64,000 nucleotides of DNA from Dactylorhiza incarnata (taxonomy: Eukaryota > Streptophyta > Magnoliopsida > Asparagales > Orchidaceae), in NCBI GenBank assembly GCA_033032865.1, contig JAWHQI010000263.1:682001-746000 (forward strand), written 5' to 3'. Below the pieces are notes generated by a model. It had not been told where the DNA came from. It saw only the letters and a program-made list of their open reading frames with translations, and did no database searches. The position numbers and the translations under genes were made by a program. This document shows, in pieces, positions 12,722-64,000 of this stretch (position 1 is the first letter of the stretch; each line of letters opens with the position of its first letter).

Positions 12722-13259
12722 GAAAACTCATTACAGGGAAACCGACGGTTGAATCAACCAACGCGTTGATTCTAGGCAAGGGATAACAATCCTTGGGGCA
12801 GCTTTTATTCAACAAAGAGAAGTCCACACACATCCTCCAGCTGCCTACAGCCTTCTTAACCATTACAACATTGGAGACCCATCCTGGATACTGGATCTCC
12901 GACACAAAACCTGCGTCCAGCAACTTCTTCACCTCTTCCCGGATAGGTCCGGCCAACATGGTGGCACTGGACCTCTTCTTCTGGCGGACGGGCTTCACCG
13001 CGGGGTCGAGGTTGAGGTGGTGGCAGGCAACCTCTGGGTCGATCCCGGGCATCTCAGCAGCACTCCAGGCGAAGATGTCGACGTTATCCTGCAGGCACGT
13101 CGCCATCTCCACCTTCTCGGTGACCTTCAGCGATCCACCGATCTTCAGCAGCCCAGATACTCCCGCTGCGGAGAGTACCTCAATTTCCTCCACCTCCTCG
13201 GATTCCTCCAGCCGGGTCGTGCCTCCAGTTACCCTCTCGAACTCCTCCGCGTCAGCCAT
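12633..13259 (-). pseudogene. Tat pol: N-terminal RT segment
   Basis: The frame contains the protease-RT linker with DIFAWSAAEMPGIDP and the first RT motifs (GSWRMCVDFSLLNKSCPKD, YPLPRI, FLDAFSGYHQI). It ends in a shifted frame after HQIRM, and the following RT motif continues in the 9986-12721 frame. This frameshift inside the RT fingers/palm would prevent a working enzyme from this copy. Confidence 0.85.
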
Positions 13260-15370: not shown

Positions 15371-15408
15371 CTCACTTTTCTACCAGACTTTCTTCCTCTG
15401 GCCGCGAT

Positions 15409-22524: not shown

Positions 22525-22555
22525 CATTCCCAAAACTCTTTGAAGGCCAACTGCA

Positions 22556-25194: not shown

Positions 25195-27945
25195 ATGGAT
25201 GCCTATTCAGGTTACAACCAGATAAGGATGAACCCCGCGGACGAGGAACATACCGCCTTCCGCACCGACAGAGGAGTCTACTGCTACAAGGTGATGCCCT
25301 TCGGTCTTAAAAATGCCGGAGCCACCTACCAAAGGCTGATGAACAAGGTATTCAAGAATCTCATCGGGGAAACGATGGAGGTTTACGTGGACGACATGCT
25401 GGTGAAAAGCGTCCACCGTTGCGACCACTTGAGAGACTTGGGAAAGTACTTTCAGCTTCTCCGTCGCTTCCAGATGTGGCTCAACCCCAGCAAATGCGCA
25501 TTCGGTGTGACGGCGGGAAAGTTCTTGGGTTTCATGGTAACCCATCGGGGAATTGAGGCCAACCCCGAGAAGATCAAGGCGTTGGAGGATATGTCGCCAC
25601 CTCGCTCAATTAAGGAAGTACAACGCCTGAACGGGAGGATCGCTGCGCTATCCCGTTTCTTGTCACGAACGGGAGACAAGTACCTCCCCTTCTTCAAAAT
25701 CCTCCGGGGAGCGCGCCACTCCGGCTTCTAGTGGACTGACGAGTGCCAAGTGGCGTTCGAACTTCTCAAACAATACCTGGCTTCGCCACCGCTTCTGTCA
25801 AAGCCCACCCCCGGAGAAACTCTATTTTTATACCTGGCAGTGTCACCTACGACTCTTAGCTCGGTGCTCGTAAAAGACGAAGGAGGGGTGCAACGACCAA
25901 TCTACTACCTCAACAAAATCCTCTCCGACACCGAAACCAGATATCCAGCAGCGGACAAGACAGCCTTGGGCCTTGTTTTTTCGGAGAGGAAGCTTCGGCC
26001 CTACTTCCAGGCTCATACAGTAAAAGTGTTGACACAACTACCACTGCGAACAATCCTCCAGAAACCAGAAGTCTCAGGAAGACTAGTGAAGTGGGCCGTA
26101 GAACTCGGCGAGTTTGACATCTAATTCCTGCCCCGACCAGACATCGAGTCACAAGTGCTCGCCGACTTTGTTGTAGAGTACACCATCCCACCAGAAGCAG
26201 CTCCAGTCGAAGACATCACTAGCCCCCGTTGGACTCTCTATGTCGACGGTGCCTCAGGAGCCGAAGGGGCCGGAGCGGGACTGCTCCTCATAAGTCCCGA
26301 TGAGACCACCTTGGATTACGGCCTCCGGTTGAAATTCCCCGCGACAAACAACGTTGCAGAGTACGAGGCGCTGATCGCCGGTCTACGACTCGCCATCAAT
26401 TGCAAAGTAGAGAACCTAACTATCTACACAGACTCTCAACTCGTAGTCTAGCAAGTCGAAGGACACTACGAGGCTAAGAACGACCATATGGCAAATTACC
26501 TCGCATTCGCGAAATTACTCCTTCAGCAGCTCGCATCGTATCAAATTCTACACATTCCCCGGGAGCAGAATTCCAGGGCTGATGCTCTATCCAAGCTTGT
26601 CACTTCACCTTCCAGCTACCAGTCTCGAAGACGCCGAATAGAAGAGATCGTGATTCTGAGTATTCAAGGGCCGTGGGAGATCGCAACCATCCACCAGGAA
26701 GAGTCATCCTGGATGACACCCTTACGAGCTTACCTCGAGCGCGGACACCTTCCTGAAGATCGCCTAGAAGCGCGAAGAATGCGGATGCGGGCGGCATCAT
26801 TTACCATTATAGACGGAGAGCTTTACAAACGGACATTCTCAGGACCGTATCTAAAGTGTCTGTCGGCAGAAGAAGCAGACTACGCCCTCAGAGAAGTGCA
26901 CAGGGGAGTCTGCGGAGAACACCTAGGCGGGAAGGTGTTGGCACAAAAAATACTACGTCAAGGCTTCTATTGGCCAACATTGAAGAAGGACGCAGCCGAG
27001 CTAGTCCAAAGGTGTAGGAGTTGTCAGCTGCACGCCAACGTACCTCAGCAACCCCCGGTCTCACTCTCCACGCTCCAAAGCGCGTGGCCATTCGCACAGT
27101 GGGGAATCGACCTCCTCGGCCCCCTACCTCTAGCATCCGGGCAAAGGAAGTTCATCATCCTAGCCATCGATTACTTCACCAAATGGGTAGAAGCAGAGCC
27201 CATAGCTAAAATCACGGAAGAGAACGCCAAACAGTTTGTCTGGAAGAACATCGTCTGCCGCTTCGGCATCCCAGCAACCATCATTGCCGACAACGACACT
27301 CAATTCACTGGGAAGTCCTTCACCAAGATGTGCGAAGACTTGAAGATCAACCTTCGTCATACTGCCGTAGCGCATCCGCAAACCAACGGGTAAGTAGAAG
27401 TCACGAATCGCACCATCCTCAAAGGGTTGAAGACACGCTTAGAAGAAGCTGGGGGACAATGGGTGGACGCACTCCCAAACGTATTGTGGGCGTACCGCAC
27501 AACAGAGAGGACTCCTACCGGAGAGACGCCTTATAACCTCTGTTACGGTACTGAAGCTGTCATCCCCATCGACATCAGCGTTCCAAGTACTCGGGTGCTA
27601 ACCTTCGACCCTAGCAAGAATGACGGGCTGCTTCGGGAAAATCTCGACCTAATCCCTGAAGTCCGGGACAACGCTGCCCAGCGTGCCGCATCCTACCAAA
27701 TGCGTGTGGCCCAAACCTACGATAGGAGGGTGAATCCCAGGCCAATCAACGTGGGAGATCTCGTCCTACGCAGCATCGAGGCAGCCGGCAAAGGCCCCCA
27801 AGGGGATAAGCTCTCACCAACCTGGGAAGGCCCATACGTTGTTACTACGGTCGTAAAGTCCGGAACATACAGACTCAGAATGGCGGAAGGGAAGACTCTA
27901 CCACGCACCTGGAACGCCCAGAACCTGCGCCGCTTCTACCAGTAA
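25195..27945 (+). pseudogene. Gypsy RT, RNase H and integrase with four stop codons
   Basis: RT has MPFGLKNAGATYQ and the catalytic YVDD. RNase H has LYVDGASGAEGAGAGLLL, NNVAEYEAL and TDSQLVV. Integrase has a zinc segment (CRSCQLH), GIDLLGPLP, IIADNDTQF, and the catalytic Glu just after a stop. The single frame is cut by TAG 25729, TAA 26122, TAG 26449 and TAA 27391. At three of these sites conserved Gln (CAA/CAG) is expected, so C-to-T changes explain them. The end lies at 27945. No chromodomain follows, in line with Tat. Confidence 0.9.
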
Positions 27946-32131: not shown

Positions 32132-32495
32132 TTTTTTTATAAACAAACTCATTATTATGTTATTGTTTAAAAAAATATTTTTTATAACCAAATTCATTGC
32201 TATATTTTTATTTAAAGTTAATTTTTATAAACAAGTTAATTAGTATATTGCTGATTAAAATTTTTTAATGTTGTATACAATTTTTTTATAAATAAGTAGT
32301 GTATATTTGGAATAATTTGTCAAATTTTTTTAGGTGAGTATTTTAAGTTATGTTGGTGTGCGAATAGCCTTTTTTTTTTGTTTGCTTTTAACAATTCCCC
32401 CAAAAAATTTAGTTTGTGATATTCATTTTTATTTCCATCAATCCTCCTCAAAAGTCAACCAAAGAATTAGTTCGCCGGCGGAGAAAGCACGTGAA
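32132..32495 (+). promoter_or_regulatory. Presumed promoter and 5' UTR region of the epimerase gene
   Basis: AT-rich sequence with a TATA-like TATAAATAA at 32287-32295, about 200 bases before the ATG. The frame upstream of the ATG is open back to 32334, but the family start is [12 protein letters not shown] at 32496, whose context GTGAAATGGCG is favourable. The proximity of the foldback element could influence expression. Confidence 0.3.
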
Positions 32496-32598
32496 ATGGC
32501 GAAGCCAGAATTGTTCGAGCTCAGCAACGGGACGATAACCGCGACGCTGACCAACGTCGGCGCCACCGTCACCTCCCTCCTCGTCCCCGATTCCGAAG
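32496..32598 (+). CDS. Aldose 1-epimerase exon 1
   Basis: Encodes residues 1-34 and the first base of Gly35. The donor is GAAG|GTTTGG. The following intron (32599-32679, 81 bp) has no in-frame stop and a length divisible by three, so its retention would keep the frame and add 27 residues. Confidence 0.9.
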
Positions 32599-35500
32599 GT
32601 TTGGACTTCTTCGATTCGATCGTCTTCTCATCATCTGATTTCGTCTGGCAACATTCTCCAATTTCTGCTTGGATTTCAGGAAATATTGCGGATGTGGTGC
32701 TCGGTTTCGATTCACCTGATACTTATGTGGTAAAGTATTGGAGACTTTTTCTTTTGAATGTCTGATATCACTTGAAATGTAGCAAAATATGCTTTGATTA
32801 GGCGGGAGATTTCCATTTGGTATTCCTTCCTGTTATATGTTTAGGAAGTAAGGGATCCAATTTATAATTTGATTCTAACTTTTGACTAGGTTGTGATCAA
32901 AGTTATCCGAGAACATGTCAACTCCTCTCTAGGAAAGATTTCATTATCACCATCATCGTTATTATCACCGCTCGTTTACTAGGTTGTGATCAAACTTTTG
33001 AAGGATCTAGAGATGCGTCGGAATATTTTGACTTCAACAATGCATTGAACTTCACAAAGACCAGATCGTTCAATCTTTTCTTGTCGTGCTTATTTCTCTT
33101 CTTCGAATGTATCTACTAAATAAAAAAATATATAAATAATTCATATTCGCATACACTTCAAATTAAATATTTTATGAGAGCGGTTATCTAACTATCTCAA
33201 AAGTGATTCAGTTCCTCTTACAACCAGACGAAGTAGCAGTTATGTTCAAAATTTTCATTGTCATAACTTTAAGATGGAGAGTATCAGGCTCGTTTACCCT
33301 TCATCAATGCACAAGCGATAAAACAACCTCCTCTCTAGCTTTCTTTATGTCTCCGTGCATCCATCCCATGACAGGTGCACCACCGTCAACTTTCTTATTA
33401 TTTTAACAAGTTGGGCGAATATAACAACGGCCAATTCCACATTTACCCAAAATCTTATGCTTCGCACTATTGTCGCAGTCTATGTGTACAAATTAACAAA
33501 ATGAGTGATTATGCCTAAAGGCAAACATAAAAACTAGTAATTGAAGAGACAATCAATTATCTGCTTGCTCGCAACACTCTTGCCCAACTTTCTTTCTTCC
33601 CACTTGATAGATTTGAACATCCCCCTCAATTGACTCTTCTTTTCTAAGATGATTTGCAGAGATAAAAACATCATAGCGAATCTAGTCACACATGTTCGAA
33701 CAAGTTTATGAGAGTCTAGTTCTTTCGTCGACTCTCTAACATGTCTAGGGAGATGGTGTGGTCGTGGATAAAGATGGAGAGTTGACAACTCCTGGAGATA
33801 GCATTAGTAATCTGCTTCAGCTTTGCTATAACCTATAACAATAGATTTAGTGTGTGTGTGTTGCACAACAAGTCCAAAAAAAATCGGTCTTCTTCAAATC
33901 CATAAACCTTGATGCAAATATATTGTTGGATGCATTGTCCGTGACAATTTGTACCATATTGTTTTCTCTTGGGTCATCGCGGCTATCGATCGTCTCATTC
34001 AATAAGTCTAAGATTGTACAACCCTGTATTCGCCGAGTGGGCCCCCAGATCCCACGAGGTATTTTTTGACATCGTTTCTAGCAAGTTCCAGGGCAGGGAG
34101 AGAGGGGGTGGGGCGAGCCCCCCTCTCGCCCCCGCCCCCAGCATAGGGGGGCGAGAGGAGGTGGGGCGAGCCCCCCTCTCGCCCCCACCCCCAGCATGGG
34201 AGGCGAGAGGAGGTGGGGCGAGCCCCCCTCTCGCCCCCGCCCCCAGCGTAGGGGGGCGAGAGGAGGTGGGAAGAGCCCCCCTCTCGCCCCCGCCCCCGCC
34301 CCCAGCATAAAGTTTATGAGAGTCTAGTTCTTTCGTCGACTCTCTAACATGTCTAGGGAGATGGCGTGGTCGTGGATAAAGATGGAGAGTTGACAACTCC
34401 TGGAGATAGCATTAGTAATCTGCTTCAGCTTTGCTATAACCTATAACAATAGATTTAGTGTGTGTGTTGCACAACAAGTCCAAAAAAAATCGGTCTTCTT
34501 CAAATCCATAAACCTTGATGCAAATATATTGTTGGATGCATTGTCCGTGCCATTTTGTACCATATTGTTTTCTCTTGGGTCATCGCGGCTATCGATCGTC
34601 TCATTCAATAAGTCTAAGATTGTACAACCCTGTATTCACCGAGTGGGCCCCCAGATCCCACGAGGTATTTTTTGACATCGTTTCTAGCAAGTTCCAGGGC
34701 AGGGAGAGAGAGGGTGGGGCGAGCACCCCTCTCGCCCCCGCCCCCAGCATAGGGGGGCGAGAGGAGGTGGGGCGAGCCCCCCTCTCGCCCCCACCCCCAG
34801 CATGGGAGGCGAGAGGAGGTGGGGCGAGCCCCCCTCTCGCCCCCGCCCCCAGCGTAGGGGGGCGAGAGGAGGTGGGAAGCGCCCCCCTCTCGCCCCCGCC
34901 CCCAGCATAGGGGGGCGAGAGGAGGTGGGGCGAGCCCCCCTCTCGCCCCCGCCCCCAGCATAGGGGGGCGAGAGGAGGTGGGGCGAGCCCCCCTCTCGCC
35001 CCCGCCCCCAGCATAGGGGGGCGAGCCCCCCTCTCGCCCCCACCCCCAGCGTAGGGGGGCGAGAGGAGGTGGGGCGAGGCCCCCTCTCGCCCCCGCCCCC
35101 AGCATAGGGGGGCGAGAGGAGGTGGGGCGAGCCCCCCTCTCGCCCCCGCCCCCAGCATAGGGGGGCGAGAGGAGGTGGGGCGAGCCCCCCTCTCTCCCCC
35201 GCCCCCAGCATGGGAGGCGAGAGGAGGTGGGGCGAGCCCCCCTCTCGCCCCCGCCCCCAGCGTAGGGAGGCGAGAGGAGGTGGGGCGAGCCCCCCTCTCG
35301 CCCCCGCCCCCAGCGTAGGGAGGCGAGAGGAGGCGCGGCGAGCCCCCCTCTCGCCCCCGCCCCCAGCTTAGGGCGGCGAGAGGAGGTGGGCCGAGCCCTC
35401 CCTCTCGCCCCCATCCCCAGCAGGGGGGCGAGACAGGAGGGGGCCGAGCCCTCCCTCTCGCCCCCATCCCCAGCAGGGGGGCGAGACAGGAGGGGCCCGA

Positions 35501-38500
35501 GCCCTCCCTCTCTCCCCCATCCCCAGCAGGGGGGCGAGACAGGAGGGGGCCGAGCCCTCCCTCTCGCCCCCATCCCCAGCAGGGGCGAGACAGGAGGGGG
35601 CCGAGCCCTCCCTCTCGCCCCCATCCCCAGCAGGGGGGCGAGACAGGAGGGGGCCGAGCCCTCCCTCTCGCCCCCATCCCCAGCAGGGGGGCGAGACAGG
35701 GAGGAGGTCAGCCCCCTCTCGCCCGGCCACGGGAGGGTGTTCTGGTCTGCGTTTAGCGCTGCAGAACAGCGGGATTTGGCTATCCGCAGGCCAAATCCGG
35801 GGGCATTTCCGTAATTTCGCAGGCAGTTTTTGGTTATTCGCAGCCCAAGTTCAGGAATTCTATAAATAGGACCAAGGGGTCACCATTTGGAGGCAGGCTT
35901 GTTCTAGGCTAACCCTCTCTCTAGTGGGGGAGGAGAGTCTCAAGTGGTGCCCAAGCCCGGCATTGGTTTGGGAGGGGAATCGCTCTAAAGATATTCCGGG
36001 TATGTGGTGGGACCTCCTCGCCGAGCCCTTGTTCCAGTTCATAGTTCCAACACCTTCAACCTAGAGTTCTCCCTTGGGGGGAGTAAGAGTTGGCCACCCC
36101 TCAACTAGTTGGGGGCCCCGAACTCCACAGAGACCGAGAAATCGGTTTCAACATTATGGTGCGGTGAGCGTGGAGTGTGACTAACTCAAGAAACTCTCGA
36201 GATGAGCTCCATGGACGGAGGTGGAGGAAGATCCGACCCAGGTCACTCGCAGCCCCCGGTGGCTGGGGTGACGTTGGAGATGTTCGAAGATTTCAGGCAA
36301 GAGGTCTTACAGACCATCCAGGTTGCTTTCGCCATGATAATCGGAGGCAGAAGAAGAGATGGTCCAGAGGTCCCGCCCCAGCAGGTGGACGAGGTAACTC
36401 TCGGCCAACAGTCCAGGAAAGAGATACCGGTGGGGGGGGGGGGAGTGGGGAGTTTCCATACCCCCACTCGCCCACCCCCAAGGGGGCGAGCTCAGGAGGG
36501 AGGCGCCCTCCCAGCTCGCCCCGCCCCTTCAAGGGGGCGAGCTCAGGAGGGAGGCGCCCTTCCAGCTCGCCCCGCCCCTTCAAGGGGGCGAGCTCAGGAG
36601 GGAGGCGCCCTCCCAGCTCGCTCCGCCCCTTCAAGGGGGCGAGCTCAGGAGGGAGGCGCCCTCCCAGCTCGCCCCTCCCTTTCAAGGGGGTGAGCTCAGG
36701 AGGGAGGCGCCCTCCCAGCTCGCCCCGCCCCTTCAAGGGGGCGAGCTCAGGAGGGAGGCGCCCTCCCAGCTCGCCCCTCCCCTTCTAGCCCCACCCCAAA
36801 CGGGGGCGAGCGGGGAGGCATCCGGCCCCCAATCGCCCCGCTCCAAAAGAAGTCGAGTGAACGTTGGTGGGCGAGACCACCCCGGGTGGCGGCTACCCAA
36901 TAGCCCGGCGAATGCAGAGGTCAACAATTCAACTCCGGGAGAGCGAGGAAAGAAGGGCCTCCAAAGGAAAAGAGCCAACCGCTCGGGGTGGAGGCAGGGA
37001 TCGAACACACCCTCCCCACCACCTCAGCAAACCATGACGATTGGTTGGGGGAGAAGGAGGAGAGCCAGGAAAGCAGAGAGAAGAGGAAAAAGAAGGGATA
37101 TGGTCGAATTACCTTACTGCGACTTCCACGATGAGGAGGGTCACGCGACGCCCGCCTGCCCCGAGTTATTGGAAATGAAAGATGCGAGGAGTCCAAGGCA
37201 ACAACGACAACTACCAGAAGAAGCCGAAGAAGACCGGGCCTGGGAGTGAGAGACTCAGCTCGGTTTCTATGCTTAGTTTTCTTTTTCAATCCCTAAGTTC
37301 ATGTAATGTGATGTTTCGTTTCCATGCCTAGTTTCCTCACATGTATCAGGGTGATTAATATAATAAAAGTTTTTCAAGAAAAAAATTGTACTTAGCCCCA
37401 ATGCTGGCCCGCTGACCAGGCTCCCACCTAGCTGGCAGGGCCGGGAACCGCTCGGGGGCAGGAAGGAAAATTCTCCACCTCCAGTTGAGCTCGCTAGTCT
37501 AGCGAATGGCCTGGAGGGTGTCGACTCTTCTCCACCTGCAGTTGAGCTCGCTCGTCTAGCGAATGGCCTGGAGGGTGTCGACTCTTCTCCACCTCCAGTT
37601 GAGCTCGCTCGTCTAGCGAATGGCCTGGAGGGTGTCGACTCTTATCCCCCTCTAGTGGAGCTCGGCTCCTAAAGTGTGTCGACCTTGTATCCACCTCTAG
37701 TTGAGCTCGGCTCCTAGATTGTGTCGACCTTAGCCCCGATGCTGGCCCGCTGACTAGGCTCCCACCTAGATGGCAGGGCCGGGAACCGCTCGGGGGCAGG
37801 AAGGAAAATTCTCCACCTCCAGTTGAGCTCGCTAGTCTAGCGAATGGCCTGGAGGGTGTCGACTCTTCTTCACCTCCAGTTGAGCTCGCTCGTCTAGCGA
37901 ATGGCCTGGAGGGTGTCGACTCTTCTCCACCTCCAGTTGAGCTCACTCGTCTAGCGAATGGCATGGAGAGTGTCGACTCTTCTCCACCTCCAGTTGAGCT
38001 CGCTAGTCTAGCGAATGGCCTGGAGGGTGTCGACTCTTCTCCAACTCCATTTGAGCTCGCTCGTCTAGCGAATGGCCTGGAGGGTGTCGACTCTTATCTA
38101 CCTCTAGTGGAGCTCGGCTCCTAGAGTGTGTCGACCTTGTATCCACCTCTAGTTGAGCTCGGCTCCTAGATTGTGTCGACCTTAGCCCCGATGTTGGCCC
38201 GCTGACCAGGCTCCCACCTAGCTGGCAGGGCCGGGAACCGCTCGGGGGCAGGAAGGAAAATTCTCCACCTCTAGTTGAGCTCGTCTCCTAGATTGTGTCG
38301 ACCTTAGCCCCGATGCTGGCCCGCTGACCAGGCTCCCACCTAGCTGGCAGGGCCGGGAACCGCTCGGGGGCAGGAAGGAAAATTCTCCACCTCCAGTTGA
38401 GCTCGCTAGTCTAGCGAATGGCCTGGAGGGTGTCGACTCTTCTCCACCTCCAGTTGAGCTCGCTCGTCTAGCGAATGGCCTGGAGAGTGTCGACTCTTCT

Positions 38501-41500
38501 CCACCTCCAGTTGAGCTCGCTAGTCTAGCGAATGACCTGGAGGGTGTCGACTCTTCTCCACCTCCAGTTGAGCTCGCTCGTCTAGCGAATGGCCTGGAGG
38601 GTGTCGACTCTTATCCACCTCTAGTGGAGCTCAGCTCCTAGAGTGTGTCGACCTTGTATCCACCTCCAGTGGAGCTCGGCTCCTAGATTGTGTCGACCTT
38701 AGCCCCGATGCTGGCCCGCTGACCAGGCTCCCACCAAGCTGGCAGGGCCGGGAACCGCTCGGTGGACGGATGCTCCAAAGGTACTTAGCCCCGATGCTGG
38801 CCCGCTGACCAGGCTCCCATCTAGCTGGCAGGGCCGGGAACCGCTCGGTGGCCGGAGATTGTCAAAGTAAATTCTTCCCCCGAGGTGGCTCCGCTAGCCG
38901 GACTCTCGCTAGCCGACAGGGTGGAGGAACTCTCGGGGAGGCTTTATGTCCTTCCCAAGATAGCTCCGTTAGCTGGGTTCCCAGCGACACTCGTCGAATA
39001 TGCAGGGTTGGACATTTCTTTCCGAGCGTGTACCTCGCTCGAAAAGAGCGGGGATTGTGTACAACCCTGTATTCGCCGAGTGGGCCCCCAGATCCCACGA
39101 GGTATTTTTTGACATCGTTTCTAGCAAGTTCCAGGGCAGGGAGAGAGGGGGTGGGGCGAGCCCCCCTCTCGCCCCCGCCCCCAGCATAGGGGGCGAGAGG
39201 AGGTGGGGCGAGCCCCCCTCTCGCCCCCACCCCCAGCATGGGAGGCGAGAGGAGGTGGGGCGAGCCCCCCTCTCGCCCCCGCCCCCAGCGTAGGGGGGCG
39301 AGAGGAGGTGGGGCGAGCCCCCCTCTCGCCCCCGCCCCCAGCATAGGGGGGCGAGAGGAGGTGGGGCGAGCCCCCCTCTCACCCCCGCCCCCAGCATGGG
39401 AGGCGAGAGGAGGTGGGGCGAGCCCCCCTCTCGCCCCCGCCCCCAGCATAGGGGGGCGAGAGGAGGTGGGGCGAGCCCCCCTCTTGCCCCCGCCCCCAAC
39501 GTAGGGGGGCGAGAGGAGGTGGGGCGAGCCCCCCTCTCGCCCCCGCCCCCAGCATAGGGGGGCGAGAGGAGGTGGGGCGAGCCCCCCTCTCGCCCCCGCC
39601 CCCAGCGTAGGGAGGCGAGAGGAGGTGGGGCGAGCCCCCCTCTCGCCCCCGCCCCCAGCGTAGGGAGGCGAGAGGAGGTGGGGCGAGCCCCCCTCTCGCC
39701 CCCGCCCCTAGCTTAGGGCGGCGAGAGGAGGTGGGCCGAGCCCTCCCTCTCGCCCCCATCCCCAGCAGGGGGGCGAGACAGGAGGGGGACGAGCCCTCCC
39801 TCTCGCCCCCATCCCCAGCAGGGGGGCGAGACAGGAGGGGGCCGAGCCCTCCCTCTCGCCCCCATCCCCAGCAGGGGGGCGAGACAGGAGGGGGCCGAGC
39901 CCTCCCTCTCGCCCCCATCCCCAGCACGGGGGGCGAGACAGGAGGGGGCCGAGCCCTCCCTCTCGCCCCCATCCCCAGCAGGGGGGCGAGACAGGAGGGG
40001 GCCGAGCCCTCCCTCTCGCCCCATCCCCAGCAGGGGGGCGAGACAGGAGAGGGCCGAGCCCTCTCTCTCGCCCCCATCCCCAGCAGGGGGGCGAGACAAG
40101 GAGGAGGTCAGCCCCCTCTCGCCCGGCCACAGGAGGGTGTTCTGGTCTGCGTTTAGTGCTGCAGAACAGCGGGATTTGGCTATCCGCAGGCCAAATTCGG
40201 GGGCATTTCAGTAATTTCGCAGGCAGTTTTTGGTTATTCACAGCCCATGTTCAGGAATTCTATAAATAGGACCAAGGGGGCACCATTTGGAGGCAGGCTT
40301 GTTCTAGGCTAACCCTCTCTCTCTCCCCATTTTCTCTCTCTAGTGGGGGAGGAGAGTCTCCAGTGGTGCCCAAGCCCGGCATTGGCTTGGGAGGGGAAGC
40401 ACTCTAAAGATCTTCCGGGTATGTGGTGGGACCTCCTCGCCGAGCCCTTGGTCCAGTTCATAGTTCCAACACCTTCAACCTAGAGTTCTCCCTTGGGGGG
40501 AGTAAGAGTTGGCCACGCCTCAACTTGTTGGGGGCCCCGAACTCCACAGAGACCGAGAAATCGGTTTCAACAAAGATGAACTTCCCGCCGTGCATGGAGG
40601 ATGAGACATTCTTTGAAAGCCAGAATTTAACTTCAAAACTGCAGTGCACTATGATGTTCATCACACTTCTCCCCTCCCGATCAATCCATGCATTGGTCAT
40701 GAGACTGTATCAATTCAATCTGTAAGTCTGGTGAATGTGCCAGTATCTCATTCGTCCCCTCCACCTCCATCTTTTGAAATTTCTCCCTAAACTCATAAGA
40801 GGTAGGGACCTTCATCTTAGGTCGCATATGCCAATATCATGTACCATCTGCTGGAAAGAGGGGTAGTATATGACATTCAACGGGATAATCGTTTCTTATA
40901 CACATCTAACAATGAATAATGCCGCATCATCTTTCGTTTTCTTCTTATACTTGCTCCTAATGATGCCCTGTTGTTGTATTTGTAAATCTTGTCCTACTTG
41001 ACTGTGTAGTGACTTGGACAAACTGGTCCATGGATCCATTGGCCCTCAACCCTGAATGTAAACTCCTGCGGATGGTGGAGTCCTCTGCGTTTAATTCATC
41101 TTGAACTCCAATTACCACATCATCCAAGCTTGCTGGCAACTTAGCGTTTTTCATTCTCTTGCTTTCTAATATGATGTTGAGGCCTAACTCAGCTTTTTCC
41201 CTCACATCCGCAAGAACTTAGGGGCATGACTTGATATTTCCCCTCCTCCCAACAGGCTTCTTGGAGAGACGATGGCCCTCGATCTTACGATTAAAAGGAT
41301 ATAGTAGAAGAAGATTGTGTCTATAAAGAGCCGATCATCTGGAGGACGAAAAGACAATACCTCGTGGCTGCATCGAGGGAAAAGGCATTATGATCGACCG
41401 GGAGGATCACTATATGTATTTGACGACATCAAGTACGTGTTGCAGTTGAGCGCTCGAGATTTCCTGGTGGTTAATCAACTAGACTGGAAACAACTTTGTG

Positions 41501-56500: not shown

Positions 56501-58470
56501 GCATAGATTACCCAAGCCCATATTGTCCGACCGTGACATACGATTAATGAGTTATTGTTGGAAGACATTATGACATAAGACAGGTACGACCCTGAAGTTT
56601 TCCACGACTTATCACCAGCAGACTGACGGTCAGACTGAGGTCGTAAATAGAAGTTTGAGAAATTTGGTACGGTGTCTAGTTGGTGAGCATCCGTCGGTTT
56701 GGGATTCTGTGTTATTCGTAGCTGAGTTCGCGTATAATAGCTCCGTCAATAGGTCTACTGTCATGAGTCCATTTCATATAGTTTTAGATTATGAGCCTAG
56801 GAAGCCTATTGACCTCACCCCTATTCCTTTAGAGTCGCGTCCTAGTGAGTCTGATGAGTCCATCCATCACATACACGAGTTGCATGAATTGATCCGGAAG
56901 AAAATTGCTAGCAGTTTTGAATTATATAAGACATACGTAAACGAGCATAGATGTGAGCAGTATTTTCAAGTGGGCGAGAAGGTCATGATCAATATTCATA
57001 TGGAGAGGCTCCCAAAAGGCGCCGCTAAAAGGCTACAACCTAAACGAATGGGTCCTTATAGGATTATAAAGAAAATTGGAATATTGATCAATATTCTAAA
57101 ACTATATGGAATATCACGTGAGCACTGGGCCTAGATAACTAGGCTCAGTGCTTGAAGCCCATAACATCTCGCCCGCCTTACAAAAAGAGCTTAACCTCAA
57201 GCTCAAGGAAGATCGATGACGGCGGCAGCCTCATCTGATGCCCTCATCGTCCGAGTCCTCGACGTGCAGATAGAAAAGCTTTTTGCTGGCTGGCGTGTTC
57301 GAACCAGCGGAACTGGCGAGGGCGTCGCTGATGATAGTGGGTTTTTGGCTTCTAACACGTTGATATTTTCTTTAATTAGCCTCTTGCAAAAATGCAGGGT
57401 AAGGTTTGCCTACATTTCACCCTTGTGCTGGGACACTTCCCTGGACCCTCACTGCGCGGGGATGATTTGTGCACCGGGCTTCCCCTAGGTGATGTGGAAT
57501 TATCCACCAAGCCTAACTTGTTCTTATACTATGTTAGAATCCAAGTATCCGACCATAAACTAAATTGGTAGGAGGTGGAGAGACTTGAGATCTAGATTAA
57601 GTGCTATTTTCCCGATGTAAGACTATTCTCAACCGTGGATTCAATGATTGATGTTTTCTTCTTTCTATACTCAAATATCTGTAAAATTATTAGTATAGAA
57701 AGCAAAAAAACAAAGCTGAATTTGTCTTCTTAGTCCAATCACGTTCAGACCCTTGCAGTGAACAAAATGTAACCCCAAAAGGTGCAAGAAGAGCTCGCCT
57801 AAATTTCTCCCATCCTTCACTAATTTGTTTTCTCCCCATTTTTCAAGGTTATCCTGGTGATCTTACAGTCACAGCAACCTACTCCCTCCCTTCAAGCAAC
57901 TCACTCAGACTTGTAATGGAGGCCACACCCAATGACAAATCCACCCCTGTGAACCTTGCCCAGCACACCTACTGGAATCTAGCAGGCCATGACTCCGGCG
58001 ACGTGCTCGACCATTTGATTCAGATATCCGCCCGTCACATCACCGCGGTTGATGCAAACACGATTCCAACAGGAGAGCTCGTGCCCGTCGAGAACACCCC
58101 ATTTGACTTCACACAAGAGAACACGATTCGCAGCAGAATTGATCGAGTTCCCGGCGGCTACGATCACAACTACGTGCTCGACTGCGGCGTAGAGAAATCC
58201 GGCTTGAAGCATGTGGCCAAAGTGAAGGATCCTTCAAGTTCTAGGGTCCTCAATCTATGGACTGATGCACCTGGAGTGCAATTCTACACAGCCAACTATG
58301 TTCATAATGTTCCAGGAAAGGAAGGAGCCATGTATCAGATGCATGCAGGTTTGTGCCTGGAGACCCAAGGATTTCCTGATGCTGTAAATCAGCCACATTT
58401 CCCAAATATTGTCATCCATCCAGGTGAGAAGTACACTCACACAATGTTTTTTGATTTCTCAGCAGATTAA
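32496..58470 (+). CDS. Aldose 1-epimerase (galactose mutarotase), five exons over 26 kb
   Basis: Exons 32496-32598, 32680-32729, 49991-50117, 51379-51483 and 57848-58470 join with GT-AG introns to 1008 bases, giving 335 residues plus TAA, the usual length for plant members. The enzyme interconverts alpha and beta anomers of aldoses such as galactose and glucose, feeding the Leloir pathway. Seen: VGRVANRI (63-69), His93 in SLHGG, His168 in [10 protein letters not shown], Asp234 in GGYDHNY, and Glu300 in CLETQGFPD. By family knowledge these are the catalytic and sugar-binding residues, with Glu as base and His168 as acid. No signal peptide is seen, so it is probably cytosolic. One oddity is Tyr90 where NGPNSLHGG is usual. 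Introns 2 and 4 have been swollen by transposons, yet no exon is damaged. Confidence 0.95.
32680..32729 (+). CDS. Aldose 1-epimerase exon 2
   Basis: 50 bases after acceptor TTTCAG, encoding [16 protein letters not shown] (36-51). The donor is TGTG|GTAAAG in phase 0. The next exon is 17,261 bases away. Confidence 0.93.
33000..34014 (-). pseudogene. hAT-family transposase relic, C-terminal part
   Basis: On the - strand, reading right to left, are a core block ([20 protein letters not shown], then [15 protein letters not shown]), a middle block (33534-33788, [31 protein letters not shown]), and a C-terminal block with [17 protein letters not shown] near 33010-33080 belonging to the dimerisation region. 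These match plant hAT transposases of the DUF659 type. Several frame breaks exist. The N-terminal part lies at 40573-41260 because a Tat element has inserted. The Asp in VTDNAS is one of the conserved catalytic residues, but the gene cannot be expressed intact. Confidence 0.85.
34015..34309 (+). repeat. Truncated extra LTR start of the Tat element
   Basis: Begins TGTACAACCCTGTATTCGCC and ends inside the GC-rich array, where the duplicated hAT sequence restarts. It is a by-product of the junction duplication, not a separate insertion. Confidence 0.85.
34310..34620 (-). pseudogene. hAT transposase relic, duplicated segment next to the Tat LTR
   Basis: Second copy of 33702-34014, holding the TDNASNN and [12 protein letters not shown] block in - orientation. 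Its last five bases, aagat (34616-34620), form the left target duplication of the Tat insertion. Confidence 0.8.
34700..35730. repeat. GC-rich palindromic minisatellite in the 5' LTR
   Basis: Two unit types follow each other. Type A (~52 bp, about 13 copies) carries GGGGGCGAGAGG and its complement CCTCTCGCCCCC around a short loop. Type B (~54 bp, about 7 copies, from 35400) carries GGGGGCGAGACAGG and CCTCTCGCCCCC. Long frames through this DNA are repeat translations, not genes. Confidence 0.88.
35861..35869 (+). promoter_or_regulatory. TATA box of the Tat LTR (copy at 40261-40269)
   Basis: TATAAATAG, 290 bases before the LTR end in both copies, directly downstream of the minisatellite. Confidence 0.65.
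36157..36173 (+). promoter_or_regulatory. Primer-binding site of the non-autonomous Tat element
   Basis: TGGTGCGGTGAGCGTGG, three bases after the LTR. It is identical to the site of the first Tat element and to that at 61490. Confidence 0.75.
36202..37249 (+). pseudogene. Gag-like ORF with in-frame 51-bp repeats
   Basis: ATG at 36202 (MSSMDGGGG). [18 protein letters not shown] aligns with the N-terminal helix of gag in the large Tat element. Six copies of a 51-bp GC-rich palindromic unit follow (36478-36790). Because 51 is a multiple of three, two frames stay open. The C-terminal piece (36857-37249) is basic and ends with [17 protein letters not shown], the same zinc-like motif as in the large Tat gag. 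The central gag core is missing, so particle formation is doubtful. Confidence 0.7.
37380..38880. repeat. Higher-order minisatellite inside the non-autonomous Tat element
   Basis: The basic unit is 57 bp (TTCTCCACCTCCAGTTGAGC, TCTAGCGAATGGCCTGGAGG, GTGTCGACTC). Blocks of it alternate with a ~85-bp segment (GCTGGCCCGCTGACCAGGCT, CAGGGCCGGGAACCGCTCGG) to make higher-order repeats. Related units reappear at 63740-64000. Repeat frames on either strand are not treated as genes. Confidence 0.88.
39058..40572 (+). repeat. 3' LTR of the non-autonomous Tat element
   Basis: 1515 bp with the same layout as the 5' LTR: type A units to about 39720, then type B units to 40110, TATA box 40261-40269, end GGTTTCAACA. 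Unit number and order differ from the 5' LTR, while the flanking single-copy parts are nearly identical. Confidence 0.92.
40573..41260 (-). pseudogene. hAT-family transposase relic, N-terminal part
   Basis: On the - strand are a BED-finger tail ([20 protein letters not shown]), a linker ending in a GSMDQFV block as in related hAT proteins, the DUF659 start ([20 protein letters not shown]), and [15 protein letters not shown]. It stops at 40573 where the Tat element entered and continues at 34620/34014. It has multiple frame breaks and no intact zinc finger. TIRs were not found. Confidence 0.8.
41261..42640. other. Unassigned DNA between two transposon relics
   Basis: A short open frame (41317-41547 +, 76 codons, with [20 protein letters not shown]) is not recognised. 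The rest shows no gene. It may include the 5' part of the hAT element or the end of the neighbouring retroelement. Confidence 0.3.
42849..44295 (-). pseudogene. Integrase and chromodomain of the chromovirus relic
   Basis: Fragments in several frames. One is a zinc segment with [18 protein letters not shown] and [10 protein letters not shown]. The core includes [20 protein letters not shown] and [22 protein letters not shown]-terminal segment ([17 protein letters not shown]) is followed by a chromodomain-like end ([18 protein letters not shown]). The chromodomain marks the chromovirus branch and in active elements guides integration to particular chromatin. Confidence 0.8.
44292..45958 (-). 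pseudogene. RT and RNase H of the chromovirus relic
   Basis: RT blocks [22 protein letters not shown] and [16 protein letters not shown] lie in the 44985-45314 frame, with the catalytic box as VFFDDIFVY. The next block ([34 protein letters not shown]) is in another frame. RNase H ([31 protein letters not shown]) follows. At least three frameshifts separate these blocks. Confidence 0.82.
45772..46152 (-). pseudogene. Aspartic protease segment of the chromovirus relic, catalytic Asp lost
   Basis: The frame shows [19 protein letters not shown] and [16 protein letters not shown]. In this family the motif is normally DSGASHNF. Here GCC replaces the Asp codon, so the enzyme would be dead even without the frame breaks. 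Confidence 0.75.
46333..46803 (-). pseudogene. Gag remnant with Copia-like start and chromovirus-like end
   Basis: The frame starts [10 protein letters not shown] and contains [19 protein letters not shown] and [16 protein letters not shown], which resemble the UBN2-type gag of Copia elements. Shortly after come [17 protein letters not shown] (another frame) and [14 protein letters not shown], which resemble the end of chromovirus gag and its zinc knuckle. Most of a normal Gypsy gag is missing between them. Confidence 0.55.
47114..47130 (-). promoter_or_regulatory. Primer-binding site of the chromovirus-like relic
   Basis: The - strand reads TGGTATCAAAGCCAGCG two bases inside the LTR, a Met-tRNA type site. 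Confidence 0.7.
47133..47433 (-). repeat. LTR of the chromovirus-like relic
   Basis: Starts TGAAATCTCAAAATAC next to the primer site. It has a TATA box on the - strand (47206-47214) and three ~60-bp repeats with GGTAACCGCCCGACC. The far end near TTACTTCGTCA (47433) is approximate. Confidence 0.55.
47509..48268. repeat. Tandem duplication, unit about 373-387 bp
   Basis: 47509-47881 and 47882-48268 both begin TGAGGGAATCGATCCCTG and end TTGATGCTTATTGAT. They differ by scattered substitutions and one extra GGAGGATGACT repeat in the second. No gene is supported. Confidence 0.85.
48269..49990. other. End of intron 2; possible LTR fragment at 49330-49650
   Basis: Mostly unrecognised AT-rich DNA. 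At 49205-49330 there is a short inverted pair (GGAGCTCCGGTG against CACCGGAGCTCC). The 49330-49650 part has a TATA-like CCTATATAAGGGAG followed by CGGTATCACAACA and looks like the end of a Copia LTR, but ends cannot be set. Confidence 0.35.
49991..50117 (+). CDS. Aldose 1-epimerase exon 3
   Basis: 127 bases after acceptor TTTGGTTAG, encoding residues 52-93 ([26 protein letters not shown]). It carries His93 of the sugar-binding site. The donor is CATG|GTATGT. Confidence 0.95.
50118..51378 (+). other. Intron 3 of the epimerase gene
   Basis: 1261 bases, GT...AG, holding the foldback MITE at 50586-50866. The remaining parts (50250-50585 and 50867-51370) show no gene, only imperfect CTTGAG/CTCGAA-rich inverted segments. 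Confidence 0.8.
50586..50866. mobile_element. Foldback MITE, about 280 bp
   Basis: Two arms of about 130 bases are inverted copies. The innermost parts are almost exact (CATTTCATAACATGCATGCA at the left, TGCATGCATGTTATGAAATG at the right, both beside CCCCAT). The outer parts (CCTCCCCTATGAG; GAAGATAGAAGGGTGCAAC) are diverged. The transcript would form a long hairpin. Confidence 0.75.
51379..51483 (+). CDS. Aldose 1-epimerase exon 4
   Basis: 105 bases after acceptor CGAACAG, encoding [19 protein letters not shown] and onward to residue 128. The donor is GGAAG|GTAAAT. Both flanking introns are phase 1. Confidence 0.95.
51721..52040 (+). mobile_element. 5'-truncated LINE (RTE-type) with 16-bp target duplication
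   Basis: The segment encodes the end of a LINE reverse transcriptase ([49 protein letters not shown]) and ends with GTTGTTGTTG. It is flanked by a perfect 16-base duplication tatatataattaagag (51705-51720 and 52041-52056). The frame is open from about 51755 to 52012. Truncation at the 5' end is normal for target-primed insertion. Confidence 0.93.
52079..52300. mobile_element. Tourist-like MITE, 222 bp
   Basis: Inverted ends GGGTCCGTTTGGCGTGGC and GCCATGCCAAACAAGACCC are flanked by TAA on both sides (52076-52078, 52301-52303). Non-coding. Confidence 0.78.
52418..53290 (+). repeat. Probable LTR remnant of the intron-4 Gypsy element
   Basis: A promoter-like region with TATAAATAAAGG (52637), then three exact 23-bp repeats of GTGGTGCGACGCCACGAGAT plus CCC (52711-52780), then a CT-rich stretch to the protease relic at 53290. 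LTR ends were not confirmed. The gag region is missing. Confidence 0.4.
53291..57134 (+). pseudogene. Gypsy pol relic (protease, RT, integrase), split by a solo LTR
   Basis: Protease sequence ([23 protein letters not shown]) runs to 53903 with many stops. After the solo LTR, RT continues ([45 protein letters not shown]). The catalytic box reads IIYFDGIL, so the second Asp is Gly. Integrase follows: [19 protein letters not shown] and [40 protein letters not shown]. No clear chromodomain is seen before 57134. The element resembles Del/Tekay-type chromoviruses and is long dead. Confidence 0.85.
53904..55017 (-). mobile_element. Copia (SIRE-like) solo LTR inside the Gypsy pol relic
   Basis: 1114 bp with TG...CA ends and a perfect tgtag duplication (53899-53903, 55018-55022). 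On the - strand it begins TGTTGGACATGTGTGTC and has a poly-C run with TATTCACC near its end, as in the Copia LTRs at 473 and 6753. Three copies of a ~36-bp repeat (ATCCTTCCCCGGATATGGCC) lie at 54218-54335. The pol frame joins cleanly across the insertion. Confidence 0.9.
57370..57487 (+). mobile_element. Au-SINE fragment
   Basis: CTTGCAAAAATGCAGGGTAA, GACCCTCACTGCGCGGGG and TTTGTGCACCGGGCTTCCCC, in this order, are the well-known body of Au-type plant SINEs. The tRNA-like head is not clearly preserved, and no target duplication was seen. Confidence 0.75.
57848..58470 (+). CDS. Aldose 1-epimerase exon 5 (terminal)
   Basis: 623 bases after acceptor TTTTTCAAG, encoding residues 129-335 with His168, Asp234 and Glu300, ending FFDFSAD and TAA at 58468. 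An ATG at 57916 is internal (Met152) and not a separate start. A/T-rich stretches with AATAAA-like sequence follow at 58555-58575. Confidence 0.97.
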
Positions 58471-59190: not shown

Positions 59191-60590
59191 GTGAGATTTT
59201 GAGTCAATGTTTACAAAATCTTTTTACCTCTGAAAAAATGATTCATCAAAAGAATGAGTTACCAATTCCATTGATATGGGCGCATATGAGATCAAAAGAT
59301 GTTTGGGATTTCTTTTATTTGATCCAAGGAGTCGTTCTCCTCAGTTGTGACTTTTCTCTTTGCTGTAATAGCGGGTTGTCACGGGCTGCTAGTTCAGAGC
59401 GCAACTGTGACCATAGTTTCATGTGCGGATGGCGCAATAAGCCACATGTTGAGGTGATAAGACGTCAAAGAGGTTGAATACTTGGGTGAGGGAGCCCTTG
59501 GCACAAGTATGACTCCATACGCAAGATGATCATGCACAAGGGGAGCATGCTAAAAAGGAAACTTGAATGTAGCCATGATACTCGATGGCGCAAAAGGATG
59601 TAGAAGTCTCCGGAACACTAAAGAGAAATCTTGAAGATATCATGGACCATTATCTTCGGGGTTGATCCCTGAGATGATTCTAAAGAAATCTGAAGTTTTG
59701 TACATAAGATGGGCATGAAGATGGAGTATTCTAGGGTTGTCTCATGAGAGCATTCTAGAATAAGGTGGAGGATTCATGTATCTTGTAAATACTATATATG
59801 TATCGAATATTCTAGAAAGTAGGCATTCTAGATCCTTCCATACTTTGGAGGGAAAGCTCTTTGGGGCCTATAAAAGGGGATCGCCCCTCATTTGTAATGA
59901 TCCAAGTTAGAATCCAAGTTTTGGACAAGCAACAAGGTTCTTTGAGTTCTTTCACTTGTGAGCTTCTCTTGAGTTGTTTCTCCATTCTTTTTTAATCCAT
60001 TTTAATCTTCATTGGCTGCACTCGATGATCATCGAATTGTTATTGATGAAGCCCTATTTTAAAAATGGCATTGCTATATGCAGATCATTTTTGGCTATAT
60101 GCAAATCGTAGCAAATGAAAAATTGTTTATGCAGACATTTGTGTTATATACAGAATAATGCACAATTTTTAAAATCTATATTTCTCATATCAACTTCTAA
60201 AATCACAACTCTTGCAAAAGTAAAACAACACCACACCACTAACTAAGGAGGAGATTCAAGCTGGTTCATTCTTCACACTTTCTTTAGCATTCAACTTAGA
60301 TTATTTTTCAATCTTTACACTTGGTTTCATGTTGATGATTTCACTAATTTTTGAAGTAAATAATATGAGAACCAAGCAGTAGGAGATAGCACCATCCGAT
60401 ATAGTGCAAATCAACCATCAAATGGGCTCTAGCATTAGCGTAATTCTTTGTTATGTTCCGTCATTTTGGCTGAATTTTCTTCATTTTCGCCTGTGCTATC
60501 AGATGGCGTCCGATGATAACATTCAAATCTTTTGGCAGACGATTCTCCACTATCGCATGCATATAACCCGTAATTTGTCGAGATCAGAAG
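59190..60590. other. Intergenic DNA with an LTR-like promoter segment
   Basis: At 59750-59960 the features AATATTCTAGAAAGTAGGCA and CCTATAAAAGGGGATCGCCC, followed by transcribed-leader-like sequence, resemble a Copia solo LTR, but the ends are not defined. The rest is AT-rich and shows no gene. Confidence 0.35.
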
Positions 60591-61486
60591 TGTTTAAGGA
60601 AAAGACCTCAGGAGCCCAGCTCGGCGGATCTGTTGAATTCACCTCGATCGCCTTCTGTTCGACGACCTTCAGTTCGTCAGCTTGAGCTCGTCAACCTGAT
60701 CTCGATAGCCTTCAACTCGTCAGCCTGACCTCGGCAACCTTCAGCTCGTCAACCCGACCTCGACAGTCTTCAACTCGTCAGACTGACCTCATCAACCTGA
60801 CCTCGACAACCTTTAACTCGTCAGCCTGACCTCGACAACCTTCAACTCGTCAGCCTGACCTCAGTAACCTTCAACTCGTTAGCCTGACATTGGTAGCCTT
60901 TAACACGTCAGTCTGACCTCAACAACATTTAGCTCATCAGCTTGACCTCGACAGTCTTAAGCTCATCAGTCTTCAGCTCATCATCCTTCAACTCGTCAAC
61001 TTGAGCTTCTCAGCCTGACCTCGAGAGTCTTCAGCTCATTAGCCTAACCCCGACAGCCTTCAGCTTGTCAGTCTAACCTCGGCATCCTGACCTCGATAAC
61101 CTTCAGCTTGTCAGCCTCCAGTATCCAGCAAAGACAGGTATGGCTATTCACATACCATGTCCCCCCTTGGATTATCTATAAATAGGACCTCAGGGCACAA
61201 GAAAGAGGCACGTTGACCCCCACTCCCCCAAGGTTCCCATCCGACAAGTCCGTGCCTCCATTGTGTCAAGCTCATCCTTGGCTTTTGGAGGGGAAGTTTC
61301 TATAAACTTCCGGGTGTGCAGCGGGTCCTCCTCACTGCAGCACACATGCCCTGTTTGTAGGCAGTCCAAAGATCTCAATCCTTTGTCTTTTTCCTATTGA
61401 GTTTTGCCTAGGGTCGACCACTAGACCAGTATCCTTTGGTCCATCTTGGTCTGAACTTTGTGAACCATATTTTTTTGGTTCCAACA
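60591..61486 (+). repeat. 5' LTR of the Argonaute-carrying Tat element
   Basis: The U3 part (60640-61125) is a degenerate minisatellite of ~29 bp with CAGCCTGACCTCGACAACC and TTCAACTCGT. A TATA box TATAAATAG lies at 61177-61185. The end is GGTTCCAACA followed by the primer site. The start near TGTTTAAGG (60591) is uncertain. Confidence 0.65.
61177..61185 (+). promoter_or_regulatory. TATA box of the Tat LTR at 60591
   Basis: TATAAATAGGACC, as in the LTRs at 35861 and 40261, just downstream of the U3 minisatellite. Confidence 0.6.
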
Positions 61487-61489
61487 CTT

Positions 61490-61506
61490 TGGTGCGGTGA
61501 GCGTGG
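61490..61506 (+). promoter_or_regulatory. Primer-binding site of the Argonaute-carrying Tat element
   Basis: TGGTGCGGTGAGCGTGG, three bases after the LTR, shared with the sites at 15409 and 36157. Confidence 0.75.
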
Positions 61507-61537: not shown

Positions 61538-61870
61538 GATTTAATGACAAACAACAACGTGGGAGATTCATAGATCAACTCACAAACTCCGAGTGAGTTT
61601 GTTACACGAGCTAACCTCGCGGAGTTCAAGCAAAGGATGATAGAGACGCTGCAAGGTCTCTTCGTATCTAGTGTCGAGGTCGTCGCGACCTCGCCCACAA
61701 ATGTCACCTCGGCAGCGGATGTCAAGCCGTCTAGACGACATGGTTAGGGGGTCGCCGCCCAACTGCAGGAGTAGCGACCTCAGTATCAGCGAAGCCAGTA
61801 CGTAACTCCACGAGCTCTTCACTTCAGCGAGTTCGAGCCAGCTCGGTCGTTGACAGCTCGATAGTTCAGA
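61538..61870 (+). pseudogene. Gag N-terminal remnant of the Tat element
   Basis: MTNNNVGDS follows the primer site, then a stop at 61571. The frame goes on with ANLAEFKQRMIETLQG, which aligns with the N-terminal gag helix of the other Tat elements ([28 protein letters not shown]). Further stops follow. The gag core and protease are absent. Confidence 0.65.
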
Positions 61871-61894
61871 TCAACGAGCCTATTTTGTGAGCAG

Positions 61895-62256
61895 ATTTTA
61901 ATCGACATCAAAATAGATCCAGAGGTCAAATCTCGAGCAGTGAGCAGAGCCTTGATGAATAAATTGATTGAGCAATTTGGTGAATCTCATCTTAGTGGGT
62001 GTTTGCCTGCATACGATGGACGCACAATCCTTTACGTTGCTGGCCCCCTTCCATTCACGTCAAATAGTTTTGAATTTCATTTCTCTACAAAGATGGACAG
62101 GAGAAAACTTACAAAGTTCATATCAAAGAAAAAGACTTTGATATATATTCTCTAATCCAATTTTGGCAAGGGAGGCAGAGAGAATTCCCATATGATGCAA
62201 TTACAGCTCTGGACATGGTACTAAGAGAATTTCTGTCGCAGGACTATGTCACTGTC
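61895..62256 (+). pseudogene. Argonaute gene fragment (N-terminal domain and linker 1) captured in the Tat element
   Basis: In one frame (61895-62091) the sequence reads IKIDPEVKSRAVSRALMNKL, then LPAYDGRTILYVAGPLPF. In plant Argonautes this is LPAYDGRKSLYTAGPLPF after a VNRAVM helix. At about 62092 the frame shifts by one base, and the second frame gives DGQEKTYKVHIKEKDF, LIQFWQGRQREFPYDA and ITALDMVLREFLSQDYVTV, the linker segment before the PAZ domain (ALDVVLRE in relatives). It ends at a stop directly against Tat pol sequence. The order and spacing are those of an Argonaute of the AGO1/5/10 type. PAZ, MID and PIWI are absent, so it cannot slice RNA. No intron is evident between the two parts, which hints at a spliced RNA source. 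Confidence 0.85.
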
Positions 62257-62257
62257 T

Positions 62258-62392
62258 GAGTTACGGTATTGGGAAGGGTTGTTCATGGTTTTAGACGCTT
62301 TAAAGATCAGAGGATACCGCATTCAGAATCAAGACGATGACACACTTGGAAACACATGGAGTGGAGATGACCTAAAAATGTTATATCCTTGA
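62258..62392 (+). pseudogene. C-terminal end of Tat pol
   Basis: The frame reads YWEGLFMVLDALKIRGYRI, then DTLGNTWSGDDLKMLYP and a stop. The large Tat element ends WEGPFIVHEALATRGYRL, LLGNTWNDDDLKRFYP (9986-10120). This proves that retroelement sequence resumes immediately after the Argonaute fragment. Confidence 0.85.
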
Positions 62393-63199: not shown

Positions 63200-63735
63200 T
63201 GGGATTGAGGTTTAAAAAAACCATGAAGCCTTGAATGCGTGAATAGATCTAAGTCCATGCCTCGTGCTGGCCATCTGACCCGTCGAGTGAAAATATCACG
63301 AAGCCTCAAATTCGTGAGTAGATCTAAGTTCATGCCTCGTGCTGGCCATCTGACCCCTAGAGTGAAAATATCATGAAGCCTCGAATGTGTGAGTAGATCT
63401 AAGTACATGCCTTGTGCTGACCATCTAACCCCTTGAGTGAAAATGCCATGAAGCCTCGAATGCGTGAGTAGATCTAAACCCATGCCTCGTGTTGGCCATC
63501 CGACCCCTCAAGTGAAAATATCATGAAGCCTCGAATGCATGAGTAGATCTAAGTCCATGCCTCGTGCTTCCATCTGACCCCTCGAGTGAAAATATCACGA
63601 AGTCTCGAATGCGTGAGTAGATCTAAGTCCATGCCCCGTGCTGGTCATCTGACCCCTCGAGTGAAAATATCATGAAACCTCAAATGCATGAGTATATCTA
63701 AGTAAAAGCCTCATGTTGGTCAACTGACCCCTGGA
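63200..63735. repeat. Tandem repeat of about 75 bp, seven copies
   Basis: Each unit has GAAGCCTCGAATGCGTGAGT, AGATCTAAGTCCATGCCTCG, and CCATCTGACCCCTCGAGTGA. Copies differ by scattered substitutions. Confidence 0.85.
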
Positions 63736-63739
63736 GAGC

Positions 63740-64000
63740 TCAGTGTTGACTTTTCCACCTCATCCAGTTGAGCTCCACTTTTGGGAGGTGTCGACTCTTC
63801 TCCACCTCCTCTAGTTGAGCTAAATCATCTAGCGAATGGTCTGGGAGGTGTCGACCTTTCTCCACCTCCTCCAGTTGAGCTCCACTCCTGGGAGGTGTCG
63901 ACCCTTCTCCACCTCTTCCAGTTGAGCTCCACTGCTGGGAGGTGTCACCTTCTCCACCTACTCTAATTGAGCTCCACTATTGGGAGGTGTCGACCTTTTC
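63740..64000. repeat. Minisatellite shared with the non-autonomous Tat element, runs off the window
   Basis: Units of 45-60 bp with TTCTCCACCTCCTCCAGTTG, AGCTCCAC and GGGAGGTGTCGAC. One unit contains TCTAGCGAATGGTCTGGGAG, close to the 57-bp unit at 37380-38880 and evidence for common descent of the two elements. Confidence 0.8.

Follow-up and report, generated by a model that had tools for sequence, protein, structure and literature searches.

Probable capture of an AGO5/MEL1-type Argonaute mRNA by a Tat-type LTR retrotransposon in the orchid Dactylorhiza incarnata

The transduction of host genes by plant LTR elements is already known from maize Bs1; Argonaute is an unusual victim. According to the main text of PMC13317346, Bs1 is an LTR element that carries segments of a plasma membrane ATPase gene and of other genes, and the same text reviews abnormal template switching and transduction as mechanisms in plants. 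The main text of PMC11963269 describes tandem arrays between pol and the 3' LTR as frequent in Retand elements, and also names transduction in retroviruses. Here we describe a locus in a 64,000-nucleotide stretch of D. incarnata DNA (the window; contig JAWHQI010000263.1, positions 682,001 to 746,000) in which positions 61907-62257 are a sense fragment of an AGO5/MEL1-type Argonaute, made up of exons 2 and 3 plus the first 14 nt of exon 4. The fragment lies between the start of gag and the last 40 pol codons of a Tat-type LTR retrotransposon. As in elements of the Bs1 kind, a host segment stands between element parts, the introns of the parent are absent, and the fusion has been mobilised after capture. 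We propose that template switching between the RNA of a Tat-type element and AGO5/MEL1 mRNA probably produced a non-autonomous element, which later spread and decayed.

The Argonaute fragment and its parent gene

In protein comparison, the frame-1 piece of the fragment (61889-62116) matches AGO10 (PDB 7sva) with an E value of 2.7e-11, and the open reading frame containing it scores 37.7 bits against Pfam ArgoN (cut-off 30.9). The collinear frame-2 piece (62074-62256) reaches profile positions 101-142 of 142 and scores 27.9 bits, below the cut-off. P0002, an orchid MEL1 from Platanthera guangdongensis, is collinear with both pieces, with 79% (56/71) identity to the former and 73% (45/62) to the latter, and MEL1 of this species (80%) was the only protein with E < 0.001 among 100 candidates scored. 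Judged from these similarities, the source gene likely belongs to the AGO5/MEL1 clade and is closest to MEL1 genes. A previous reading of the window from its sequence alone (the sequence-only reading) had placed in 61538-62392 a piece of an Argonaute gene flanked by remnants of gag and pol, which the AGO10, ArgoN and P0002 matches bear out. It had also claimed coverage of the N and linker-1 domains; the N domain holds, whereas linker 1 does not, the Pfam match being to ArgoN only. With about 117 codons, the fragment comprises the N domain alone, without PAZ, MID and PIWI, and is frameshifted by one 1-bp deletion, and so does not qualify as a functional Argonaute. It has the same sense as gag and pol, and gag reads in frame into AGO (...CEQILIDIKIDPEV in the window copy; EILVAPVPEGF at that place in another Tat element of the window).

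The likely parent gene is present in two copies on contig C255 of the assembly (3.27 Gb, 3184 contigs searched), with 84-88% DNA identity to the fragment. P0002 and DNA matches place these copies at C255:2171000-2184000 (L035, L009) and C255:2243000-2253000 (L010), on opposite strands (inverted) and with their exon 2 copies 68 kb apart. P0002 aligns to them in many exons, covering aa 157-857 and 157-982 of 982 in two 10-kb stretches, and they are the only gene-like DNA matches in a search with the AGO part. For one copy, exon 1 was located 7.9 kb upstream of exon 2, and its end reads CAATACGAG ahead of GTGAGT; the 4.9 kb of upstream DNA examined for the second copy (L010) revealed no exon 1. 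In L009, a GT-AG intron of 119 bp separates the 191-nt exon 2 from the 150-nt exon 3, after which comes an intron of 88 bp, and the matching introns of L010 measure 123 and 86 bp. The fragment crosses both exon joins without one intron base. Exon 2 (61907..62096, forward strand; 88% identity to L009 5609-5799, with the 1-bp deletion) is fused to exon 3 (62097..62243, forward; one codon deleted) without the 119-bp intron, and exon 3 to the initial 14 nt of exon 4 (62244..62257, forward), where the fragment ends, without the 88-bp intron. Two exact exon joins without introns indicate that the template was spliced RNA; the loss of both GT-AG introns is what the sequence-only reading had proposed to look for against the parental gene. 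The two gene copies differ at only 8 of the 355 positions of the captured part, which argues that the capture predates their split.

The host element, its copies and its junctions

The 5' LTR of the window copy (60558..61486, forward; putative start) has TG...CA ends and contains tandem 29-nt units. It pairs with the 3' LTR that the sequence-only reading had sought, and which we found beyond the window, at C1810:746910-747819 (L011 5910-6819), preceded by a purine tract (AAAAAAGCGGGGA). The primer binding site (61490..61506, forward) lies inside a 25/25-base match to the window's other Tat element and is complementary to what we take to be the 3' end of plant tRNA-Phe. The N-terminal gag remnant (61544..61903, forward), with a stop after codon 9, is collinear with 12 AGO-less relatives (L023-L034) at 71-75% DNA identity, a similarity that includes the end of the LTR, and matches the window's other Tat element weakly (E 0.028). 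Downstream of the fragment, the C-terminal end of pol with its stop codon (62268..62392, forward) shares 62.5% identity over 40 aa with window positions 10108-9989 on the reverse strand (E 7.6e-15). The LTR end, primer site and gag remnant of a Tat-family element named in the sequence-only reading are thus confirmed by the primer-site match and the 12 relatives. Its pol tail is likewise present, but with 40 alignable codons (62270-62389) instead of the 44 claimed. Tandem arrays of 75-nt and 47-nt units follow between pol and the 3' LTR (63215..63997, forward); the part at 63784-63997 is 71-77% identical to arrays in 37471-38700, with short matches of up to 86%. The AGO fragment occupies the place of most of gag-pol. 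A second (archaeal-type) RNase H between RT-RH and integrase is a feature of the Tat clade: the pol of the window's other Tat element has an RVT_3 match at aa 350-467, three AGO-less relatives (L023, L026, L028) match that part wholly or partly, and the region is absent from the AGO element, which has no RT either.

Several further features of the window were recorded. Larger gypsy-type elements with gag and pol lie at 9989-15379 (reverse strand) and 22544-27945 (forward strand), the former being the window's closest match to the primer site and pol tail of the AGO element. Pieces of an aldose 1-epimerase (PF01263) are found at 57694-58470 (185 bits) and 32334-32765 (17.6 bits, below the cut-off); about 25 kb of DNA with retroelements separates them, and they are perhaps parts of one gene with a very long, transposon-filled intron. 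Large GC-rich tandem arrays of a 53-bp unit occupy 34096-35696 and 39139-40124, with a nearly identical unit at several places nearby. Rfam gave no match at the gathering score in the window.

A search of the assembly with 61538-62392 returned 49 matches, a lower bound with 40 of 251 candidates scored. The search with the AGO part only, in which all 17 candidates were scored and very common words were skipped, so that further copies are possible, returned 20 matches; all of them fall in 14 element loci or in the two copies of the gene on C255. The gag-AGO junction lies at the same place in all 14 element loci, 12 of which were fetched and read in sequence, while C3095 and the second locus on C2477 span the join by match rows only. 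One junction common to all loci argues for a single capture followed by copying. The codon before ATC at the join (61904..61906, forward, in the window copy) is GAC in 5/12 fetched copies and xAC in 9/12, and may be the final codon of AGO exon 1 or consist of junction bases. In the gene as it stands GAG precedes exon 2, and GAC could be an older end of exon 1, so that the fragment would begin at exon 2 or 3 nt earlier. In all 66 pairs of the 12 fetched copies, in-register homology upstream stops within 1143 bp of the AGO start, a limit that, measured on the window copy, falls inside the LTR. The copies lie at different loci and were mobilised after capture.

All 12 AGO-less relatives proceed into gag at the point where AGO begins in the element copies; gag matches were found in each of them and pol matches in six. 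Free blastn matches between the window and these relatives end at 61844-61909, and with the query cut at 61906 the alignments end at 61890-61904, the relatives carrying on in gag. Similarity resumes at window positions 62268-62270 in four relatives (L023, L026, L028, L031) and likewise in the window's other Tat element. The sequence-only reading had proposed a search for other copies with the same gag-AGO junction, and had named as contrary evidence AGO-less family members together with target duplications around the fragment, as expected of an independent insertion. AGO-less relatives do exist, but the fragment has no flanking duplications of its own and its junction is common to the copies. 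The common junction, the intron loss and the 3' LTR together uphold its view of a capture inside a Tat-type element instead of a chance neighbour.

Two types of 3' junction were distinguished. In type A, read in six of the 12 fetched copies, AGO extends to about gene position 341-355 and is followed by about 10 nt and then the pol tail; L013 retains AGO to position 324 and then has a deletion of its own. An apparent AGO extension to gene position 438 in L016 consisted of a run of small gaps and was discarded. In type B, clear in three copies (L014, L017, L018), AGO is left near position 272 and pol is entered further upstream; two more copies (L020, L022) are probably of this type, their AGO end lying at a similar but less clear place, and L022 has no pol match. 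At the type B join, AGO-less pol agrees exactly with the window copy's AGO part over GGCAAG (5/6 nt in the gene), and after a one-base gap the similarity continues with GGAG. Such short homology is consistent with a template switch. In a FastTree tree of the copies, a support of 0.894 unites four of the five type B copies among the type A copies, this label coming from an unrooted tree, whereas L018, aligned on its second half only, is placed elsewhere; the tree was built without an outside Argonaute and thus does not bear on single origin. The order from type A to type B is the simplest, because type A holds AGO sequence missing from type B.

Coding constraint is absent from the copies, and the insertion in the window is old. 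Its LTRs are identical at 702 of 857 gap-free positions (82%), a Jukes-Cantor distance of 0.207, while the 12 copies differ in their AGO part by a mean distance of 0.210; these close values suggest that the window copy inserted at about the time when the family spread. At the rice rate of 1.3e-8 per site and year, this would have been roughly 8 My ago, although the orchid rate may differ and the tandem repeats in the LTR add error. Differences between copies at the three codon positions amount to 0.190, 0.172 and 0.187, without an excess at third positions (the associated p = 0.04 is untrustworthy, copy pairs being non-independent). The AGO frame is broken in all 12 copies, mostly by indels: L011, L015, L017 and L019 have indels without any stop read, L016 has stops only, and L018 carries a 660-bp interruption. 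In a separate comparison with gene copy 1, window positions 61907-62013 show differences at 3 of 107 sites and the rest of the AGO part at 45 of 244. Both parts could be compared in 10 other copies, none of which has so marked a contrast; gene conversion at 61907-62013 is possible.

Origin of the fusion

Based on the anatomy of the element, we propose a sequence of events in which (i) element RNA and MEL1 mRNA would have been co-packaged in one particle; (ii) reverse transcriptase would have switched template twice, yielding the order LTR-gagN-AGO-polC-LTR; (iii) the product would have integrated and then moved in trans with the help of full-length relatives; and (iv) at least one recombination with a full-length relative at a short homology would have given rise to type B. 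In all likelihood the AGO piece is carried as a passenger. Several observations count against this scenario. The AGO part begins no more than 3 nt from an exon edge, a position that a random switch would seldom produce; the roughly 10 nt of the type A junction (62258-62267) match neither source clearly; and the exact homology at the type B join is only 5-6 nt. Moreover, no clean target-site repeat was found at the ends of the window copy, LTR pairs were not recognised in any of the remaining 11 AGO copies that were fetched, and the downstream homology of L015 with L018 and with L021 (4.8 and 2.5 kb) exceeds that of other pairs.

The position of the gag-AGO join near an exon edge lends some weight to a splice model, in which transcription reads through from an element upstream of or inside AGO intron 1, a donor in gag is spliced to the acceptor of exon 2, and only the 3' junction arises by template switching. 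A splice-made 5' junction combined with a template-switched 3' junction is the classical model for retroviral oncogenes. It would explain why AGO homology starts exactly where exon 2 does; at about 7.9 kb, the first intron in one of the gene copies is roomy enough for an element, and a GT is found 1-6 nt before the join in four AGO-less relatives (L027, L031, L032, L033). However, none of the 12 relatives has a GT exactly at the join, the codon before the join (GAC, or more generally xAC) is unlike both the relatives and the intron of the gene, and about 12.8 kb, covering intron 1 of one copy and upstream sequence of the other, contain no gag or pol match to the window's Tat proteins; DNA matches there to five query loci fall only outside their gag, AGO and pol. 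A Tat element in AGO intron 1 as donor was accordingly not found in the 12.8 kb searched, and we regard this route as rather unlikely. The absence of introns would equally suit a processed AGO pseudogene made by a LINE, inserted into the element at the DNA level and then carried along, but the fragment is cut at both ends and followed by no poly(A), gag-pol is missing exactly around it, and no longer intron-free copy was detected in the AGO-part search (17/17 candidates scored), which makes such an origin very unlikely.

It is also conceivable, though very unlikely, that the fusion is a selected gene, encoding a gag-AGO protein or supplying AGO-directed small RNAs that help the element. The in-frame join of gag with AGO and the exact 35- and 50-nt runs common to the window copy and gene copy 1 are compatible with such a role, and captured sequences in maize serve as siRNA reservoirs according to the main text of PMC13317346. 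An in-frame join is nevertheless expected by chance in one of three cases, third positions show no excess of differences among copies, and the AGO part of every one of the 12 copies is disturbed by an in-frame stop, an insertion or an indel that breaks the frame. In addition, no short gag-AGO protein was found in the protein collection at E 0.001 among 25 candidates. Beyond its short length, nothing favours reading the fragment as AGO debris beside an unrelated retroelement, and the same junction in 14/14 element loci refutes it, so that this explanation can practically be set aside.

Possible feedback on silencing and comparison with known systems

Exact runs link the window copy to both gene copies, 35 and 50 nt in length for copy 1 and 35 and 36 nt for copy 2, so that small RNAs could match both the element and the gene. 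The sequence-only reading had suggested that a transcribed copy could give rise to small RNAs against Argonaute mRNA. We consider it very unlikely that this family with its sense AGO part would supply small RNAs matching host MEL1-type Argonaute mRNA; if it did, silencing the element would cost the host part of its silencing machinery and would protect the transposon in those cells in which it has to transpose. Rice MEL1 is described as germ-cell specific, with its RNA confined to pollen mother cells (PMC10247740). By conjecture for orchids, the capture may therefore record activity of the element in germ cells. Orchid AGO5 proteins are, in turn, reported to act against viruses (PMC8126185), which makes expression beyond germ cells possible. 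The element family provides a defined set for studying whether silencing is affected by sequence captured from one of its own genes.

No capture of an Argonaute by an LTR element was encountered in the titles and abstract openings searched, an absence within that coverage and not proof of novelty, and the word Argonaute is absent from the main texts of PMC3726574, PMC13317346, PMC11963269 and PMC9023349. The LTR-captured genes of rice, sorghum and maize resemble the present case in that host genes lie between LTRs and some were copied on, whereas that survey was built on annotated genes (PMC3726574). In common with Tat/Retand Ty3-gypsy elements, the AGO element has tandem arrays between pol and the 3' LTR (PMC11963269). 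It differs from them in lacking most of gag and pol and carrying an AGO fragment instead. As in retroviral oncogene transduction, a spliced host mRNA in sense orientation, truncated at both ends, replaces genes of the element; in contrast, the element is intracellular and derives no evident benefit. Like maize Bs1, it harbours host gene sequence inside an LTR element without any full-length gene (PMC13317346, main text). Unlike Bs1, it shows no sign of a new functional gene and combines one Argonaute segment with a Tat-type backbone and decayed copies at 14 loci. With the parent gene, the lost introns, the founder junction, the AGO-less relatives and a later variant all present in one assembly, the family offers a well-resolved case of probable host mRNA capture.
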